Positions 5,030-26,352 of a DNA stretch of 44,398 nucleotides are shown here, piece after piece. Below the pieces are notes generated by a model. It saw only the letters and a program-made list of their open reading frames with translations. It ran no database searches and was not told the origin of the DNA. The translations under genes and the position numbers were made by a program. The stretch comes from a virus, in the IMG/VR virus record IMGVR_UViG_3300042731_005385, positions 1-44,398 of that record. One strand, 5' to 3'. Every line of letters begins with the position of its first letter. Position 1 is the stretch's first letter.

Positions 5030-5064
5030 GGCCATAGTATAGTAGCTTAACGGGCCTCGCTCAA
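5030..5064 (-). promoter_or_regulatory. Predicted late promoter P1, leaderless start of small terminase
   Basis: On the minus strand, TTGAGC (5064-5059), a 17-base spacer, TATACT (5041-5036) and 6 bases lead directly to the ATG at 5029. TATACT matches the sigma-70 -10 consensus at five of six positions. The TGA stop of the upstream methylase gene (5063-5061) is embedded in the -35 hexamer, exactly as at promoter P2. This would start the packaging and head transcript. Confidence 0.65.
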
Positions 5065-6200
5065 TCCTCAAGTCGACGCACTATCGGCCGATGCTCGACC
5101 CGGTATCCGAACGCCGCAGTTCCCATCGACTCTCGAGCGGCCAGGTCCGGAACGAGTGCACGTATCGCCAGCTTGAGTTGCTCGTACGTCGGATTGAGCG
5201 TGCCGGCGACCCACCGATTGACCTGGCTCTGCGTCACGCCGACGGCCGCTGCGAGCTGGGTCTGGTTGGTCCCTGCCTGCTCGATGGCGGCCGCGAGCCG
5301 CTCGTTGCGGTCGGGCTTCGCCTCGGTCCCAAGCGACAACCACATGCGGCACTGGTCTGGCTTCTGCGTGTACCAGTCCCACGTCTCGAGGTCGACCGCC
5401 ATCATGCACGGGACCTTGCCGCGGCGCTTCCCGTCAGCCGCCACGCTCCGGGCCTCGCTCGTCTCGAGCAGCTTCCAGTGCTTCCAGGTCTCGCACTCCT
5501 CCTCGCAGTCGGGCAGGGTGGCGACCACACGCGCGCCACGGTCAACGCACGCCTGGGCGCGTCGCTCGAGGCGCTGCGAGTCCTCGACCGTCCAGCCACC
5601 CGAAGAGTAGCCCGTGAACGTCCCGAGGTACGGCGGGTCGAGGAAGACTCGATCGCCCTCGCCAGCGTTCCATTCGACGAATGGATTGATGTCTCCTATC
5701 ACGTTGGCGGGACCAATCACTGCACCCTGAAGCGCCGTCGACGCAGCTCGCAGGCGTGCCTCGTCGACGAGCGGGCCTTTGAGCTTGGCGTAGGGCACGT
5801 TGTACCGCCCCTTCTGGTTGACGCGCCAGATCCCGTTCACCGCGCAGCGATTGAGGTAGTAGGCCCTGGCCGCCCGGTCGACGTCGCCGAGGTACTCAGG
5901 GTCGACAGCGCGCAGCGCATAGTAGACGGCCTTGTCTCGTGGCCAACCAGCCAGCGCCTCGAGTAGGTCATCGAGCTGGTCGCGGACGACTCGGTAGAGC
6001 ACGACGAGGTCGGTGTTGACGTCCGAGAGCAGCGCCGGACCGTCGTAGCGAGCGGCCCGGAGCGCGAAGAAGACCGCCCCGCCGCCGAGGAAGGGCTCGA
6101 AGAAGCGCCCGCCCGGCTCGGGCTGCCCGAGCAGGTCGAGGACTCGGCCGGCTAGGCGGCGCTTGCCACCGAGCCAGCGAACGAAGGGTTGCGGTTTCAT
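5061..6200 (-). CDS. DNA adenine methyltransferase (D12 class) with C-terminal HTH
   Basis: This 379-aa protein has FEPFLGGGA (around residues 34-42, SAM-binding motif I) and LDPPY (DPPY at about 188-191, catalytic motif IV). This order marks a Dam-like N6-adenine methylase. Past residue 300 it carries an XRE-like helix-turn-helix (NQTQLAAAVGVTQSQVNRWV) not needed for catalysis. The HTH could target the enzyme or let it act as a regulator, for example on its own structured 5' region (6201-6470). Phage Dam enzymes usually protect against host restriction or tune packaging; the target site cannot be read here. It starts at an ATG with no strong SD. It is the last gene before late promoter P1. 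Confidence 0.88.
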   Translation of the reverse strand: MKPQPFVRWLGGKRRLAGRVLDLLGQPEPGGRFFEPFLGGGAVFFALRAARYDGPALLSDVNTDLVVLYRVVRDQLDDLLEALAGWPRDKAVYYALRAVDPEYLGDVDRAARAYYLNRCAVNGIWRVNQKGRYNVPYAKLKGPLVDEARLRAASTALQGAVIGPANVIGDINPFVEWNAGEGDRVFLDPPYLGTFTGYSSGGWTVEDSQRLERRAQACVDRGARVVATLPDCEEECETWKHWKLLETSEARSVAADGKRRGKVPCMMAVDLETWDWYTQKPDQCRMWLSLGTEAKPDRNERLAAAIEQAGTNQTQLAAAVGVTQSQVNRWVAGTLNPTYEQLKLAIRALVPDLAARESMGTAAFGYRVEHRPIVRRLED

Positions 6201-11930: not shown

Positions 11931-11936
11931 GGTCTC

Positions 11937-11994
11937 GACGAGGACGACGAGGTCGACGAGGACGACGAGGACGACGAGGACGACGAGGACGACG
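11937..11994 (+). repeat. Tandem GAGGACGAC repeat before the first rightward gene
   Basis: Copies of the 9-bp unit GAGGACGAC, one slightly altered (GAGGTCGAC), run up to the ATG at 11995. Each unit carries GAGG, an SD core, so the leader offers several ribosome contacts. One frame also encodes an acidic stretch (EDD repeats) from an ATG at 11928, but it is out of frame with the downstream gene. Confidence 0.7.
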
Positions 11995-12237
11995 ATGGCT
12001 ACCTGGGAAGAGATCGAGGCGAAGTACCACCGCAAAGCAGCTGCTTTGCAGCGAGAACTCGCCGAGTGGCTCGCCGAGCAGCTGGCAGACGGTACTCCCG
12101 CCACCCCGCGTTTCGAGGCACACCGTGAATGTACGAGCTGCAAGTATCAACACGTAGACAGCTTGCAAGATCCTTGCGCAACGTGCCTTGAAGCGAGCGG
12201 TGAAGGCTTCAGCCATAGCAAATGGCAGGCCAAATGA
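11995..12237 (+). CDS. Small protein with two CxxC pairs
   Basis: The 80-aa product begins MATWEEIEAKYHRKAAALQRELAEWL, a charged helix. It then has CTSCKYQHVDSLQDPCATC, a double CxxC arrangement that probably binds zinc, and ends in FSHSKWQAK. It is the first gene of the rightward block. Its GAGG-containing leader is a tandem repeat. Its function is unknown. It is coupled to the next gene through an ATGA overlap. Confidence 0.7.
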   Translation: MATWEEIEAKYHRKAAALQRELAEWLAEQLADGTPATPRFEAHRECTSCKYQHVDSLQDPCATCLEASGEGFSHSKWQAK

Positions 12238-14177: not shown

Positions 14178-16270
14178 AGCTCGACGAACCCCGTCCCTGG
14201 ACGCACGCCAGCCCGAGCCAAGTCAACTCGTTCCGCCGCTGCCCGCGGCGCTGGTGGTACGAGAAGATCGCCGGGCGGCGACCGCCTCCGAAACCGGCCG
14301 CTGAGCTGGGCAAACGCGTGCACGACATCGCCGAACGCTGGCTCCGTGGCGAACTCGAGATCCCTCGCCGCCGAGGCGAGCTGCTACAAGGTGCCGACGG
14401 TGAGGCGATGCGAGTCTTCGCCCCCGGGCGCAAGCACTTGCCGCAGCCGCCCGTCGACCCGACCAATATCGAGCGTTGGGTCGGGTTGCCGGGTATGTGT
14501 GAACCCTTCGACCGCAACCCGAAAGGTTGGGCAATTCCGACTGAGGTCGTACCACTGGTTGGCCGGGTCGACCTGTACGACCTGACCGGGCCCCTGCCGG
14601 CCGTGGTCGACCACAAGACGACCGGTAGCTCGGACTGGGTGAAGACCCCGGAGCAGTTGCTCGAGGATGCCCAAGCGGCTGTCTATACCCGCGAGCTGCT
14701 TTGCGACTTGACTCATCCTGGAACGGGCATTGTCTGGGTGCTCGATCGTGGGCTGCGCGACGAGGTGGTCTTCCGACACGTCTACTATCTCACCCGCGGC
14801 CGGCCGCGGAGCTGGGTTGTCGAGGCGGTCTGGGATCGGGCCCGGTCCGACCGGGTCTTCGGCGCCGTCGTCGAGACGCTTCGGACGATGGCGCCGCTCG
14901 CCCTCGAGGTCGAGGACGAGGCGGTCGAGAGAAACCCGCGGGCTTGTCGCGACTATGGCGGCTGCCCGCACAAACACTACTGCAACAAGGGGAAACGATT
15001 CATGGGCAACAGCAACAAGGGCGGGCTCTTCGCAGGACTCAAGGAAGGGGGCGACGGCCTCACGCTGGCAGAGCGAATCGCGGCCAAGAACAAGGCCATG
15101 CTGGCAGGAGGTGCAGGAGGTCCGGCCGAGGAGCCGAAGGCCAAGGCACCCGCTGACCCCGGCGTCGCAAAGGCGAAGGCGGCCACGAAGCGGCTGACCA
15201 AGTCGGACGCCGGGGTCGGCGTCGCGAAGGCAGCCAACCTCCCGGACCCCGATTCCGCCGCGGCGCGGGTCGTCGAGGAGGCGAAGCGGCGCACCTCCGA
15301 CCCGGGCCGGGCTGCCACGCCGAGCACGACCGAGCGCGACCCGGACCCGCCCAACCCACCGGACGGCACGCCGCGTGACGTCGTCGGCGACGTCGGCGAA
15401 GGCGCCCGGCGCGGACTCAAGGTCGACGGAAAGTTGATCAGCAAGTTCAAGGTCGCAGAACTCGAGGACTACCTGGGTCTTCCGGCCAAGTGTTCGGTCT
15501 GGGAAGCGATCGCGCGCTACAAACTCGACCCGAAGGAGGCAAGTGAACACGGAACTCGGGCGCAGTGGTTCAAGTGGTTGGCGCTCGAGGTTGCCTGCGG
15601 CCAGGTCAAGCGACCGGGCGATCCGAAGCCCGAGCCGAAGTCCGATCCGAAGCCCGAGCCGAAGCCGGACCCGAAGCCCGAGCCGAAGCCCGAGCCGAAG
15701 CCCGAGCCGAAGCCCGACCCGAAGCCCGAGCCGAAGCCCGACCCGAAGCCCGACCCGAAGCCCGACCCGAAGCCCGACCCGAAGCCCGACCCGAAGCCCG
15801 ACCCGAAGCCCGACCCGAAGCCCGACCCGAAGCCGATACCTCCGAGCGACTGGGAGGACGAACGATTTTCTGCGGACCCAAAGCCCGAGCCTTTCGCGGG
15901 CTTCGGGTCGTCCGAACAGGCATCCGAGCCGATGCTCCGCCGTTTCGTGTTGCTCGTCGACTGTGTGCCCGAACGCATGGTGCCTGGGCTTACGGTCCAC
16001 CTACAAGATCTGGTAGAGCCCTTCGCCCGCGCCGTCGAGGAGCAGGTCGACGCCGACGGAAGCCGGAAGCGGGCATACTACGCCTCCGACCCCTACCGGT
16101 CCGGACAGCGCGAGGTTGCCGAGCGACTCGCCCGGGCGTTCGAGGAGGATGCGGAGTGGCTCAACGGATGCCAGGTGGTCATCGCCCGGTCGGACCACCC
16201 GGCGGCGCTCGAGGTCCTCGACGTGCTCTCGCGCCGGGCGACGACGGTGATCCGCGGAGTCGGACGATGA
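14174..16270 (+). CDS. RecB/Cas4-like PD-(D/E)XK nuclease with Pro-Lys linker and extra C-terminal domain
   Basis: The 698-aa protein starts [20 protein letters not shown], the opening of the Cas4/RecB nuclease family. It then has [23 protein letters not shown], which supplies the Asp and the D-x-K catalytic pair. [13 protein letters not shown] is a cysteine cluster that, with Cys in FRRCP, may hold an iron-sulfur cluster. After residue about 275 comes a low-complexity linker and a stretch of repeated PKPDPKPEP (15622-15837). A conserved-looking domain of about 125 residues then begins near [20 protein letters not shown]. It would process DNA ends for recombination with the helicase and DUF669-like neighbours. 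It starts at a GTG coupled to the previous gene. Confidence 0.85.
15622..15837 (+). repeat. Tandem 12-bp repeats encoding PKPDPKPEP
   Basis: About 18 copies of a 12-bp unit of the form CCCGACCCGAAG or CCCGAGCCGAAG run through the nuclease gene. They encode a stiff, extended Pro-Lys-Asp/Glu linker between the nuclease and its C-terminal domain. Length change by slippage is likely and keeps the reading frame. Confidence 0.85.
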
Positions 16271-16509: not shown

Positions 16510-16736
16510 TCTTGTGCGAATGCGAAGAGCATGAAACGGTGGTTCACGAGGACCATGTTGACTGCCCCGTGTGCACAGCGCTCGACAGGATCGAGGAGCT
16601 AGAGACCGCGTCCGGAGAGTCAGCCTCCGGACGTGTCGAGGAACTCGAAGAGCAAGTCGAGGAACTCGAAGCGCAAGTCGAGGAACTCGAGGCACAGATC
16701 GTAGACTTGGAAGAAGAGCTGCAGCAATCTCGATGA
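16506..16736 (+). CDS. Small zinc-site plus coiled-coil protein
   Basis: The 76-aa product reads MILCECEEHETVVHEDHVDCPVCTALDRIEEL, with CEC and CPVC able to form a zinc site. A heptad coiled coil built of VEELEEQVEELEAQVEELEAQ repeats follows and makes up most of the second half. It overlaps both neighbours by ATGA. This design, a metal head and a dimer tail, suggests an adaptor or single-strand binding accessory. Function is unknown. Confidence 0.65.
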   Translation: MILCECEEHETVVHEDHVDCPVCTALDRIEELETASGESASGRVEELEEQVEELEAQVEELEAQIVDLEEELQQSR

Positions 16737-19198
16737 ACCTCCCGCCGCGAATCGCTGCTCGGGTCGCCGAGCGGCCGCCAACCGAAGGCGAGCGGGCGCT
16801 GGCCGCCCCGTCCGAGCCGCTACCCCCTGGCGCGCTCGACGAGGCCCGCCGGTCGGTCGTCCGTTCACCTTCGGTGTGCAAGGACTTGCGTCCCTTCATT
16901 TCGCTCTATGGCGGCAAGTGGCGCGCCGCGCCGCGGTATCCGGCCCCGGTCCACGCCACAATCATTGAACCATTCGCAGGCGGGGCTGGGTACTCGCTCC
17001 GATACCCTGACCGGAACGTGATCCTCGTCGAGCGCGACCCTGCGATCGCAGGCGTGTGGCGGTACCTTCTGCGCGCGAGCGCCTCCGAGATCCGGTCGCT
17101 TCCGGACATCGAGCCCGGTCAAGATATCAACGACTTGCCATGCTGCGAGGAAGGGCGCCTTCTGATCTCTTGGTGGCTCAACAGCGCGGCATCGGGTCCG
17201 CGTAGAACGCTGTCTGAGCAGGGGTGCCATGGTCCAAGGTCGGACGCTGTGCGGTTCGCGTGCTTCTGGGGCCCAAAGGTTCGCGAGCGCATCGCCACCC
17301 AGGTCGACCGTATCCGGCACTGGCGACTGGTTGAAGGCGACTATACAAGTGCGCCAGCTATCGAAGCGACATGGTTCATCGATCCGCCATATGAGCAGGC
17401 CGGGAAGCACTACCGGTTCGGGTCGAACAGGATCGACTATAACACGCTCGGAGACTGGTGTCTCTCACGATCTGGTCAAGTCATTGTCTGCGAACAAGAG
17501 GGCGCGACCTGGTTGTCGTTTGAACCATTTGCCACGATCAAAGCGGCGAATCATGGAGGCGGCAAACATCGAAGCTGCGAGGTGATTTGGACACAAGGAT
17601 GCATCGAGCTCCGTCCCGTGCAGCTCGAGATCCTCGCCGAGCTCCGTCGCGCCGGCGGGTGCCTGGGCAACGTCGGGGTCGGACGCGGCAAGGAGCTCGC
17701 CTGCCTGCTCGCCGCGACTGCCATCGAGGCCGAGCGGCCGATGCTGCTCTGCCCGAGCGGGCTCGTCGACGTCGCGCTCGAGGAGGCGGGGAGGTTTGGT
17801 GGCGCCTTCCGCATCCGCCCCGACCTGCTCATTGTGCCTTACGAGCTGCTCTCGAGCCCGAAGCGGGCCGGGCTGCTCGAGGAGCTCCGACCCGATCTCA
17901 TCGTCGCCAACGAGGCACACTACCTCCGACACAAGACGTCAGCCCGGACGCGGCGCGTGCTCCGCTACCTCGCCGAGCACGACGAGTGCCGATTCGTGGC
18001 CGTCTCCGGCACGCTGACGGCCGGCAGCCTGCTCGATTACGCGCACCTCGCCGAGGCTGCGCTCTGGGAGCGGTCTCCGATACCCCGAGGTGGCGCGGAG
18101 CTCTCGGCCTGGGCGGCAGTCGTCGACGCCGACGGAGACCCGCTGCCGCGAGACTACTCGATGACACAAGCGCTGGCTGAAGCTTGGGCAAACGATCCAA
18201 TCGACGCCGATGTCGACGTGAGGCACAACCCGTCTGATGCGATCCGTGACATGGTTCGGGACGCACTTCGCCGCCGGCTCGAGGCGACACCTGGGGTCGT
18301 CCTGACCAAGGCGTCGAGCTGCGACTGCTCCCTGGTCATCCGGCGCGTGCGACAGCCCGAGGTACCGGCCGCGGTCCGGGAGGTCATGGCCGAGGTCGAG
18401 CAGTCCGGGGTCACGCCGGACGGAGAGCGCTGGCTCGAGACCCCGGATCAGATCGCGACCTGCCTGCGACAGCTGGCACTCGGGTTCTCCTACTCTTGGG
18501 ACTGGGCCGGCGTCGACGAAGACGTACGGCGCGAGTGGCTCGACGCGCGCAAGGCGTGGTCTGCAGCGCTTCGCTGGGTACTTGAGCAAGGTGATCCGGA
18601 TCTCGACTCGCCGGCCCGGGTCGTGGCAGCAATTGAGACCGGTACGCATACTTCGACGAGGCGGCGCTCTTGGATTATCGAACGCTACCTACGTTGGAAA
18701 GAGATCGAGCCCGACGCGAGCCCGACCAAGACCACCACTTGGCACGATCGCTGGCTCGTCGAGGACGCGGCCCGCTGGCTCGACGGCCTCGGCGAGCCCG
18801 GGATCCTCTGGTACCGGCACCAGGCGTTCGGCGATGCGCTCCGCGAGCTGGGCGTCGACGTTCGAGGCGAAGGTGAGTCACCGCCGGCCGAACCGGGCCC
18901 CGTGGCGCTGTCTGTGGCAGTCCACGGACAAGGCTACAACCTGCAGGCGTGGCGGCTCGGCCGAGTCGTCGGCCTGCCATCGTCCGCTGCGGTCTGGGAG
19001 CAGCTGCTCGGCCGTTTCCACCGCGCAGGACAGCGCGCCGACGTCGTGATCTGCGACGCGTATGCGCACCATCCGGGTGAGCGACGGGCGCTCGCCCGGG
19101 CAATCAAGCGAGCCCAGGCCATCGAGGCACAGACTGGGCAGAGCCAGAAGCTGCTACTCGCCCGCGTCGTCGACGCAGCGAGTGGCCTCAACTACTGA
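16733..19198 (+). CDS. DNA adenine methylase fused to SNF2-like helicase with altered ATPase motifs
   Basis: This 821-aa protein joins two domains. Residues about 45-290 are a D12-type methylase with EPFAGGAGYS (near 80) and FIDPPYEQAGKHY (DPPY near 217-220). From LRPVQLEIL (near 296) it becomes a superfamily 2 helicase. Walker A is GVGRGKE (Lys near 320), with Glu where Ser or Thr is normal. Walker B reads VANEAHYL (near 390-397), with Asn in place of Asp. Motif III is VSGTLTAGS and motif VI is QLLGRFHRAGQRADV, intact. The junction is tight, with no linker. Helicases like this usually accompany phage polymerase and recombination genes; here ATP hydrolysis may be weak. Confidence 0.85.
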   Translation: MNLPPRIAARVAERPPTEGERALAAPSEPLPPGALDEARRSVVRSPSVCKDLRPFISLYGGKWRAAPRYPAPVHATIIEPFAGGAGYSLRYPDRNVILVERDPAIAGVWRYLLRASASEIRSLPDIEPGQDINDLPCCEEGRLLISWWLNSAASGPRRTLSEQGCHGPRSDAVRFACFWGPKVRERIATQVDRIRHWRLVEGDYTSAPAIEATWFIDPPYEQAGKHYRFGSNRIDYNTLGDWCLSRSGQVIVCEQEGATWLSFEPFATIKAANHGGGKHRSCEVIWTQGCIELRPVQLEILAELRRAGGCLGNVGVGRGKELACLLAATAIEAERPMLLCPSGLVDVALEEAGRFGGAFRIRPDLLIVPYELLSSPKRAGLLEELRPDLIVANEAHYLRHKTSARTRRVLRYLAEHDECRFVAVSGTLTAGSLLDYAHLAEAALWERSPIPRGGAELSAWAAVVDADGDPLPRDYSMTQALAEAWANDPIDADVDVRHNPSDAIRDMVRDALRRRLEATPGVVLTKASSCDCSLVIRRVRQPEVPAAVREVMAEVEQSGVTPDGERWLETPDQIATCLRQLALGFSYSWDWAGVDEDVRREWLDARKAWSAALRWVLEQGDPDLDSPARVVAAIETGTHTSTRRRSWIIERYLRWKEIEPDASPTKTTTWHDRWLVEDAARWLDGLGEPGILWYRHQAFGDALRELGVDVRGEGESPPAEPGPVALSVAVHGQGYNLQAWRLGRVVGLPSSAAVWEQLLGRFHRAGQRADVVICDAYAHHPGERRALARAIKRAQAIEAQTGQSQKLLLARVVDAASGLNY

Positions 19199-24089: not shown

Positions 24090-24449
24090 CTACTCGACAG
24101 CAAGGACCACGACGGCCACCAGCGCGCCGACCGCGACAACGACTAGCCCGATGACAACCTCCGACCGCTGCCACCATTCGACTTCCGGCGCGCAGCCGCG
24201 GGCGAGCGCGGTCACGCACTGGTCAGCCCGATCGCGCTGCGCCGCCTCGCGCTCCTTGGCCGCATCGAGCTCGGCCGCTCGACGCAGCTGCTCGGCCTCG
24301 AGCTCGGCGGCGCAGGCGAGCAGGTGGCGGAACACGCGGTCGGGCAGAAGAGCCCCGCCGCACGGCTCGTCGACGCTGAGCGCCTCAGAGCACTCGGCGG
24401 CCGGCGGCGGAGTGGCGGAGAGCAGTGCAGCAGCGAGGAACGCGATCAT
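24090..24449 (-). CDS. Spanin-like membrane protein with signal peptide and C-terminal TM
   Basis: The 119-aa product starts MIAFLAAALLSATPPPAAEC, a secretion signal without a clear lipobox. It continues with a coiled coil (LLACAAELEAEQLRRAAELDAAKEREAAQRDRADQ) and ends in a transmembrane segment (VIGLVVVAVGALVAVVVLAVE). It overlaps the i-spanin-like gene by ATGA and is the last gene of the lysis cassette. An outer-membrane o-spanin would need a lipobox and no C-terminal TM; a u-spanin would have a lipobox and a TM. This is neither exactly, so spanin function is inferred from position. Confidence 0.6.
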   Translation of the reverse strand: MIAFLAAALLSATPPPAAECSEALSVDEPCGGALLPDRVFRHLLACAAELEAEQLRRAAELDAAKEREAAQRDRADQCVTALARGCAPEVEWWQRSEVVIGLVVVAVGALVAVVVLAVE

Positions 24450-24796
24450 ATAGACCACAGGGGCGCGGAACGCAGCGGAATCCACGGCCATTGGTCGCGA
24501 GGGATCTTGTTGAGCCGGTCCACCAGCCCGGCCCGGTCGAGCGCCTCGATCGTCTTCTTGGTCTGGTCGAGGCTCTTCTCGATCGTCGCGAGCTTCGCAT
24601 CGCGCTCTACGTCAGCTTGGCGCAGCCGCTTCGCGGTCTCGACCTCGCGAGCCAGCTGGTCCGCCACGATCTGCCGCGCGGCCCGCTCGCCGGACAAGCT
24701 GCGTGTGGCTGACACTGCGATGAGGATGGAGACGATCGTGGTGCCCAAGAAGATTGCCCAACCCCAACGACGTAGCCAGCCGATGACCAGGGTCAT
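24446..24796 (-). CDS. Inner-membrane spanin-like protein (Rz-like)
   Basis: The 116-aa product reads MTLVIGWLRRWGWAIFLGTTIVSILIAVSATRSL, one N-terminal transmembrane segment. A long coiled coil follows (EVETAKRLRQADVERDAKLATIEKSLDQTKKTIEALDRAG) and then a proline- and tryptophan-rich end (PRDQWPWIPLRSAPLWSI). That is the form of an inner-membrane spanin, which spans the periplasm and acts after the endolysin. It starts at an ATG overlapping the endolysin stop (ATGA). Confidence 0.72.
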   Translation of the reverse strand: MTLVIGWLRRWGWAIFLGTTIVSILIAVSATRSLSGERAARQIVADQLAREVETAKRLRQADVERDAKLATIEKSLDQTKKTIEALDRAGLVDRLNKIPRDQWPWIPLRSAPLWSI

Positions 24797-25542
24797 GGTA
24801 GCAACAGCTGGCCGATGGTCAGCATCCCGTGGCGCGGCTTGTCGAGGTCGAGCCGTCCTTCGCCGCCCCGGTACCAGGGTGTTCCCTTGCCCGTCCACCA
24901 CTGGTAGAGCACCCAATCGGACAGCCAGCCCGGTCGGTCCTTCGGGTCCCACCCTGCCTCGATGATCTCGACCGTTGGGACGTCGACGGAGAGCTTCGGC
25001 TCGGACTCCCGGCCGGCGTTGGCCAGCCAGAGCGGCGAAGCAGTGAGCTCCTCGTCGTCGAGGTCCAACCGGTAGCGGCCGAAGGAAGCCAGGGTATAGA
25101 TCCCGCCCCGAACGCCGAGGCGCTGCTCGACATAGTAGAGCCACGCGAGCGCCCAGTCGGTCTGGTCGCGTCGACTGAAGTCGCGGTAGTACTCCTCGCG
25201 AGCCTCGCGCGACTCGAACCGGTGCCATTCGAGATCCAGCCAGGGAATCGAGTCGCCGGGCTGGAGGTCGCCGACCTCGAGACAGAAGGTTTCGGCTTGG
25301 AGCTCGGGCTTGAGCCTGTGGCGCCGCTGCTTCGTGTCGGCGTAGTGGTAGTCGCCGCGGCTGGCGGGCGATGCGTCGACAAGTCGCGCGTGCTCGCGCC
25401 CCTTCGTTGATGCCTTGAGCTGCGACCGTTTGATGATGGCTAGGACGCAGCCAGCTTCGTACGCAGCCAGGTAGTCGATCTTGTCCGTCTGCTGCCAGTA
25501 CGAAGCGTCGCAGGCGAAGACCGGCTCGGCGAAGGTCGTCAC
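24793..25542 (-). CDS. GH25-type endolysin (muramidase)
   Basis: The 249-aa product shows a glycoside hydrolase 25 pattern: FACDASYWQ with Asp12, CVLAIIKRSQ, GDYHYADT (65-68 YHYA), and PWLDLEWH with the Asp103/Glu105 pair. WLYYVEQRLGVRGGIYT and VLYQWWT match later family positions. GH25 enzymes cut the MurNAc-GlcNAc bond of peptidoglycan. There is no signal peptide, so it needs the holin to reach its target. It starts at a GTG overlapping the repeat peptide stop (GTGA). Confidence 0.85.
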   Translation of the reverse strand: MTTFAEPVFACDASYWQQTDKIDYLAAYEAGCVLAIIKRSQLKASTKGREHARLVDASPASRGDYHYADTKQRRHRLKPELQAETFCLEVGDLQPGDSIPWLDLEWHRFESREAREEYYRDFSRRDQTDWALAWLYYVEQRLGVRGGIYTLASFGRYRLDLDDEELTASPLWLANAGRESEPKLSVDVPTVEIIEAGWDPKDRPGWLSDWVLYQWWTGKGTPWYRGGEGRLDLDKPRHGMLTIGQLLLP

Positions 25543-25667
25543 GAGTCGAGGTCCACGTCGAGCTGCAGAGAGGGAGCGTCGAGGTCCACGTCGAGCTGCA
25601 GAGAGGGAGCGTCCAGGTCTACGTCGAGCTGCAGAGAGGGAGCGTCGAGGTCCACGTCGAGCTGCAT
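25539..25667 (-). CDS. Repeat peptide QLDVDLDAPSL x3.7, between holin and endolysin
   Basis: This 42-aa gene reads M, then QLDVDLDAPSL three times, then QLDVDLDS. Its ATG overlaps the holin stop (ATGA) and its TGA overlaps the endolysin GTG (GTGA), and GAGGA lies about 8 bases upstream. The 33-bp units differ only at two synonymous positions, so the protein sequence appears to be kept. Alternating hydrophobic and acidic residues suggest an amphipathic beta strand, and DVDLD resembles acidic metal-binding loops. I know no family like it. A role in holin or endolysin control is inference from position. A non-functional translation-coupling spacer is the main alternative. Confidence 0.72.
   Translation of the reverse strand: MQLDVDLDAPSLQLDVDLDAPSLQLDVDLDAPSLQLDVDLDS
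25544..25666 (-). repeat. 33-bp tandem repeat
   Basis: Three full units and one partial unit are arranged head to tail and make up nearly all of the repeat peptide gene. The unit length is a multiple of three, so gain or loss of a unit keeps the frame. Confidence 0.95.
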
Positions 25668-26086
25668 CACGAGTCCTCGACCGCGCGGCGCGTCCGGCGT
25701 TTGATCAAGTGGACCAACCACCAGTTCTGCGCCCCGCCCACGAAGCCAAGCGCCAGTCCCCAGAACGGCGGGACCGGCAACAGCTCGACACCGAGCGCGT
25801 GATCGAAAGTCGCCATGCCCAGGCCGACGCACGCACCGAGGAACGCCGAGACGGTGCCGACGAGCGCCGTCCAGCGCCAGCTGGGTTCGGGCAGTCCGGC
25901 GGCCAGGCGCTCGGCGCGCCACGGCTTAAGCCACTTGGAGCAGACGAGCTCGGTCAACCCGTAGGCGGCTAGGGCCGGGATCGCCACGAGGACGATCCCG
26001 GCCAGCCACAAGGGGATCTCCGGCCCCGCGGCTCCGGGGAGGCTGGCCGCTTCGGAAATCCAGGCATGGGATTCGTGCCCTTCCAT
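25667..26086 (-). CDS. Holin-like membrane protein
   Basis: The 139-aa product starts MEGHESHAWISEAASLPG and has three probable transmembrane segments: PLWLAGIVLVAIPALAAYGLTELV, TALVGTVSAFLGACVGLGMA and FWGLALGFVGGAQNWWLVHLI. It ends in a basic tail (KRRTRRAVEDS). Three spans and a charged C-terminus fit a class I holin. It opens the lysis cassette. A promoter 6 bases from the ATG replaces the SD, suggesting a leaderless transcript. Longer in-frame extensions upstream overlap the promoter and terminator and are unlikely. Confidence 0.75.
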   Translation of the reverse strand: MEGHESHAWISEAASLPGAAGPEIPLWLAGIVLVAIPALAAYGLTELVCSKWLKPWRAERLAAGLPEPSWRWTALVGTVSAFLGACVGLGMATFDHALGVELLPVPPFWGLALGFVGGAQNWWLVHLIKRRTRRAVEDS

Positions 26087-26291: not shown

Positions 26292-26293
26292 CG

Positions 26294-26348
26294 CCACCGC
26301 CGGGCCACCGCCGGGCCACCGCCGGGCCACCGCCGGGCCACCGCCGGG
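26294..26348. repeat. Five tandem copies of an 11-bp unit
   Basis: CCACCGCCGGG is repeated exactly five times, followed by CCAC. Eleven bases are about one helical turn, so the copies face the same side of the DNA. They lie immediately upstream of promoter P4 and after the stop of the 47-aa gene. Confidence 0.95.
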
Positions 26349-26352
26349 CCAC

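Follow-up and report, generated by a model that had tools for sequence, protein, structure and literature searches.

A 33-nt minisatellite between the holin-like and endolysin genes of an uncultured phage may persist as a relay ORF for coupled translation

In overlapping gene pairs joined by ATGA or TGATG, strict translational coupling was found for 13 of the 14 pairs tested (PMC6728339), and a gap of approximately 20 nt nearly abolishes coupling (PMC10666635). In mycobacteriophage Ms6, the GTG of lysA overlaps the TGA of gp1 (GTGA), and the loss of gp1 lowers the amount of full-length LysA, which was attributed to either chaperone action or coupling (PMC3111421). In bacterial genomes, minisatellites and short variable segments have been explained by replication slippage between short repeats (PMC2884548). 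Here, we describe a tandem-repeat ORF that is overlapped at both ends by the genes of a phage lysis cassette.

The window, which is the whole stretch of DNA analysed, comprised one IMG/VR virus record of 44,398 bp from an uncultured phage with 65% GC. The window showed matches to baseplate, tape-measure and, weakly, tail-sheath proteins, so that a phage with a contractile tail is probable. On the minus strand, a holin-like ORF was followed by the repeat ORF, an endolysin of glycoside hydrolase family 25 (GH25), a protein with one helix and a coiled coil, and a 133-aa ORF (Table 1). The initial annotation had placed a 42-residue gene of QLDVDLDAPSL repeats in a lysis cassette between holin and endolysin. 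Translation and Tandem Repeats Finder (TRF) confirmed the existence, strand and sequence of this gene, and its setting was borne out by Pfam family PF01183 for the GH25 endolysin and by position and topology for the holin. The identity of the endolysin is secure by family matches (PF01183, E = 5e-11; PHROG endolysin, 3e-9). The holin-like ORF matched no PHROG or Pfam family, and Foldseek with its low-confidence model (helices at residues 26–62, 70–97 and 107–138) gave no match below E 0.7; we infer the holin label from the position and the three predicted helices. The protein encoded downstream of the endolysin gave just weak coiled-coil matches (PHROG, Pfam) and may be i-spanin-like or accessory holin-like. 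The 133-aa ORF, for which no PHROG or Pfam family was matched, is the probable last lysis gene.

Table 1. Coordinates of the lysis cassette, its repeat features and the other tandem arrays in the window.
Feature	Position	Strand	Description
9-nt array	11936-11995		CGACGAGGA x 6.7; open in all six frames, encodes e.g. a DED/DDE run
12-nt array	15619-15834		x 18; inside a 698-aa PD-(D/E)XK exonuclease ORF; encodes a DPKP/EPKP tail
21-nt array	at 16635		x 2.7
133-aa ORF	24090..24491	-	hydrophobic segments at N- and C-terminus
One-helix and coiled-coil protein	24446..24796	-	116 aa counted from ATG; ATGA overlap with endolysin
Endolysin, GH25	24793..25542	-	249 aa; GTG start; weak Shine-Dalgarno
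Repeat ORF	25539..25667	-	42 aa; ATG 25667-25665, TGA 25541-25539
9-mer GACTCGTGA, downstream copy	25539..25547	-	repeat ORF end; overlaps endolysin GTG as GTGA
33-nt tandem array	25545..25666	.	3.7 copies; minus-strand unit CAGCTCGACGTGGACCTCGACGCTCCCTCTCTG
9-mer GACTCGTGA, upstream copy	25667..25675	-	holin-like ORF end; overlaps peptide ATG as TGATG
Holin-like ORF	25667..26086	-	139 aa; three predicted helices; C-terminus positively charged
11-nt array	26293..26352	.	GCCACCGCCGG x 5.5; non-coding, between a 59-aa ORF and the holin-like ATG

Neither viral contigs nor phage records contained relatives with the same lysis cassette, and a distant blastn search with the 3-kb cassette among phages gave no match. 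Relatives of the endolysin were absent from 50,697 phages, and viral contigs yielded a single distant, partial match (35%). Terminase and baseplate queries retrieved distant relatives only. The replication genes were related to those of phage ctsHD2 (MW202816) and of 29 viral contigs, which shared the DNA polymerase at 24–46% identity. Since neither the endolysin nor the neighbouring baseplate protein was matched in these 29 contigs, the late genes seem to belong to another lineage. Judged by these matches, the window is mosaic, and the collections searched contained nothing closely related to it. Elsewhere in the window, one minus-strand ORF (5061-6200) matched a DNA methyltransferase (residues 1–262) and helix-turn-helix repressors (residues 298–342) and is a possible methyltransferase-repressor fusion. 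An 875-aa ORF on the plus strand (16571-19198) matched a family of phage DNA helicases, and a section close to its N-terminus matched part of a DNA methyltransferase family.

The product of the repeat ORF reads MQLDVDLDAPSLQLDVDLDAPSLQLDVDLDAPSLQLDVDLDS*, that is, M followed by three units of QLDVDLDAPSL and QLDVDLDS. It is acidic, with 12 Asp in 42 residues, and contains neither Lys nor Arg, so that trypsin would leave it uncut. TRF reported a period of 33 with 95% matches over 122 bp (score 230). The highest TRF score among 20 order-3 Markov surrogates of the window was 78, which places the array far above chance. The array has the make-up of a minisatellite, in which two or more units of at least 10 bp follow each other head to tail with high identity and above chance. 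Variation in copy number was sought, with one genome known and no second isolate found. TRF also detected four further strong arrays in the window, whose units are unrelated (Table 1); one of them is non-coding, lies approximately 600 bp from the repeat ORF and has a unit length that is no multiple of three. Given these four arrays, this genome is prone to expanding tandem units, and such expansion requires no selection on peptides. In a related phage (G016, L043:4447-6107), large tandem arrays of 60-nt and 180-nt units with up to 18.6 copies follow the DNA polymerase a few kb downstream.

Both ends of the repeat ORF showed a stop/start overlap of the −1 or −4 nt type that defines overlapping genes: the junction with the holin-like ORF is TGATG with a 1-nt overlap (25669-25665), and that with the endolysin is GTGA with a 4-nt overlap (25542-25539). 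The GTGA overlap had been recognized in the initial annotation; the ATGA named there for the upstream end is actually TGATG, and ATGA joins the endolysin to the next gene. The ATG of the repeat ORF has GAGG 7 nt upstream, with an estimated Shine-Dalgarno energy of −5.9 kcal/mol, in contrast to −3.0 kcal/mol for the endolysin GTG, which is like random positions (median −2.8). From these estimates, a usable start for the peptide and an endolysin dependent on coupling are likely. A hairpin regulator was not indicated, as the RNA of the region folded less well than its shuffles (z = +2.45). The 9-mer GACTCGTGA and its 8-mer ACTCGTGA occurred only twice in the window, with both strands searched. 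The probability that random TGA contexts have six upstream bases in common is 0.0018. When the 128 nt between the 9-mer copies were removed in silico, the holin stop overlapped the endolysin GTG as GTGA, with GAGG 4 nt upstream. The pair is as expected after a short-homology duplication, and its location at the two ends of the array speaks for such an event more than for an established lysis protein.

These observations led us to hypothesize that a holin/endolysin overlap was once the site of a short-homology duplication, from which a minisatellite formed and survived as an in-frame relay ORF, a scenario that we consider probable on balance. The array, the overlaps, the duplicated 9-mer and the weak endolysin Shine-Dalgarno sequence are present in the window, and the order of events, the translation and the relay function are postulated as follows. 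The holin-like and endolysin genes probably once met in a direct GTGA overlap (..GAGGACTCGTGACG..), a junction that is a reconstruction since no relative without the insert was found. A short-homology duplication would have copied the 9-mer, split the boundary and introduced a 33-nt unit, which would then have expanded to 3.7 copies. A ribosome terminating on the holin gene would restart at TGATG, aided by the GAGG, translate the repeat, and then restart at GTGA on the endolysin without a clear Shine-Dalgarno sequence. The sequence of the peptide would be mostly incidental, and what is kept would be the open frame and the two overlaps. The insert can be read as a relay ORF because its unit is a multiple of three and stop/start overlaps are present at both ends. 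Going by the published coupling data (PMC6728339, PMC10666635), a 128-nt insert that is not an ORF should uncouple the endolysin. Such an insert would cut the endolysin supply unless it held an ORF overlapped at both ends, and a relay is therefore the simplest function for it. The earlier suggestion of a spacer that sets the ratio of holin to endolysin comes close to the relay, the best-supported reading.

Support for the relay ORF includes the array score above the surrogates, the four other arrays, the 9-mer pair, the Shine-Dalgarno contrast, the codon score of the peptide frame (see below) and a holin tail that differs between G007 and G008, two phages with a weak relationship to that of the window. 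In G007, the closest partner of G008, the holin was 74% identical to that of G008 over 100 residues. The G007 holin ends ..RLRGAGGRKDEPR and the G008 holin ends ..RLRRAGEGAGGGAGAGEGASAGAGESAEEGGRDEQPR, so that one holin has an extra low-complexity tail of approximately 20 residues directly before the overlapping next lysis gene. By analogy, a lysis gene tolerates such an insert at its 3' end if frame and overlap are kept, although the holin of G007 and G008 just weakly matches that of the window (G008: 34%, E = 4e-4, a match that local tblastn missed). Searches of phages and viral contigs found no relatives of the holin-like protein. A match to G010 was spurious, as no holin-like ORF was present there. 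Against the relay ORF, the 9-mer might be a coincidence or a convergence on a useful stop context.

Codon usage and the differences among the units bear on whether the peptide itself is selected. The units were identical save one, which carried GTG>GTA and CTC>CTG. Both substitutions were silent in the peptide frame, the sole frame of six in which this is so, and the same two generate TAG in another minus-strand frame. The claim that the units differ only by synonymous changes is thus literally correct, but overstated for two substitutions in one unit. A single random change in the unit is silent in 26% of cases, which gives a probability of approximately 0.07 that both of two changes are silent by chance. 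The direction of these changes is suggestive, but n = 2 is too small to claim selection, and the proposal that the amino acid sequence is selected is left unsupported. The open frame is uninformative in a genome of 65% GC: 84% of random 33-nt pieces of the genome were stop-free in a given frame, and just one of the six frames contained a stop over the length of the array. The codon score of the peptide frame was the best of six, at 4.8 bits per 11 codons, compared with a median of 3.5 for in-frame windows and a 95th percentile of 2.4 for off-frame windows; it draws on just these 11 informative codons, the remainder being copies. Gene-like codon usage with fully silent differences, as in a selected protein, counts against the relay ORF, and so does the antisense frame, which scored almost equally (4.2 bits). 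A genuine lysis accessory peptide, acidic and possibly beta-rich, could be made together with the endolysin, bind endolysin or holin and, like Ms6 Gp1 with LysA, influence stability, export or timing. We regard such a peptide as rather unlikely. Its position and GTGA overlap equal those of gp1/lysA (PMC3111421), the codon score and the silent differences single out its frame, and AlphaFold predicted four strands. Yet the model has low confidence (pLDDT 62, pTM 0.25) and no confident fold, the silent changes number only two, and no homologue was found in any search (PHROG, Pfam, viral contigs, PDB sequences). The repeat also lacked a Pfam match up to E 0.1 to described calcium-binding repeat families. 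Homology to Gp1 (Pham1480) was addressed by family-level search, not by direct alignment to Gp1, and no PHROG or Pfam family matched the peptide. Neither cation binding through the DVDLD runs nor regulation of holin timing, both raised in the initial annotation, found support in these results. The search it had proposed, for the 11-residue repeat in metagenomic phages, came back empty: a degenerate pattern for QLDVDLDAP gave 0 matches in viral contigs, and the tandem form was found nowhere else in the viral contigs or genomes searched. In genomes, the pattern gave five matches, of which the four true QLDVDLDAP were single and unrelated (three histidine kinases and one IF2-like protein). An accessory protein born de novo from the tandem repeat, made in a fixed ratio with the endolysin, binding endolysin or holin and with its copy number as an adjustable timing knob, is improbable. 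No result here favours a functional acidic lysis peptide.

The array might also be a neutral minisatellite that is open by chance and has no role, the endolysin being translated independently or by leftover ribosomes. The frequency of open frames among random units and across the array fits this, as does the non-coding array close by, but the same frame is overlapped at both ends and the endolysin Shine-Dalgarno estimate is no better than at random positions, and we consider a neutral array unlikely. It is very improbable that the copy number, or the whole array, is an artefact of metagenome assembly. Arrays are difficult for short-read assembly and the locus comes from a single record; against this, common reads are longer than the 122-bp array, one of its units deviates from the rest, and its two edges are consistent with the flanking genes. 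It is more economical to view the repeat as a minisatellite that is kept open and bridges two coupled lysis genes than as a selected peptide.

If the relay ORF is real, new small genes can arise in compact phage operons: a repeat at a coupled boundary would be tolerated only when it is open and both overlaps are kept, and the requirement of the ribosome would itself make the ORF. The repeat ORF also offers a simple test case for whether small ORFs annotated in lysis cassettes are proteins or bridges. The nearest described arrangement is gp1-lysA of Ms6, in which a small ORF likewise lies directly upstream of the endolysin and overlaps its GTG. Ms6 Gp1 is a described chaperone-like protein, whereas here an acidic tandem repeat follows a holin-like gene and endolysin binding is hypothetical. 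With the coupled ATGA/TGATG pairs (PMC6728339, PMC10666635), the locus shares 1-nt and 4-nt overlaps, the TGATG and GTGA motifs and co-directed genes; it differs in that the middle gene is a tandem-repeat ORF without a known product and that coupling is predicted from the sequence. The array resembles bacterial minisatellites and short variable segments (PMC2884548) in its units of more than 20 bp, over 90% alike, and in the short homology at its edges, but it sits inside a phage lysis operon known from one genome.
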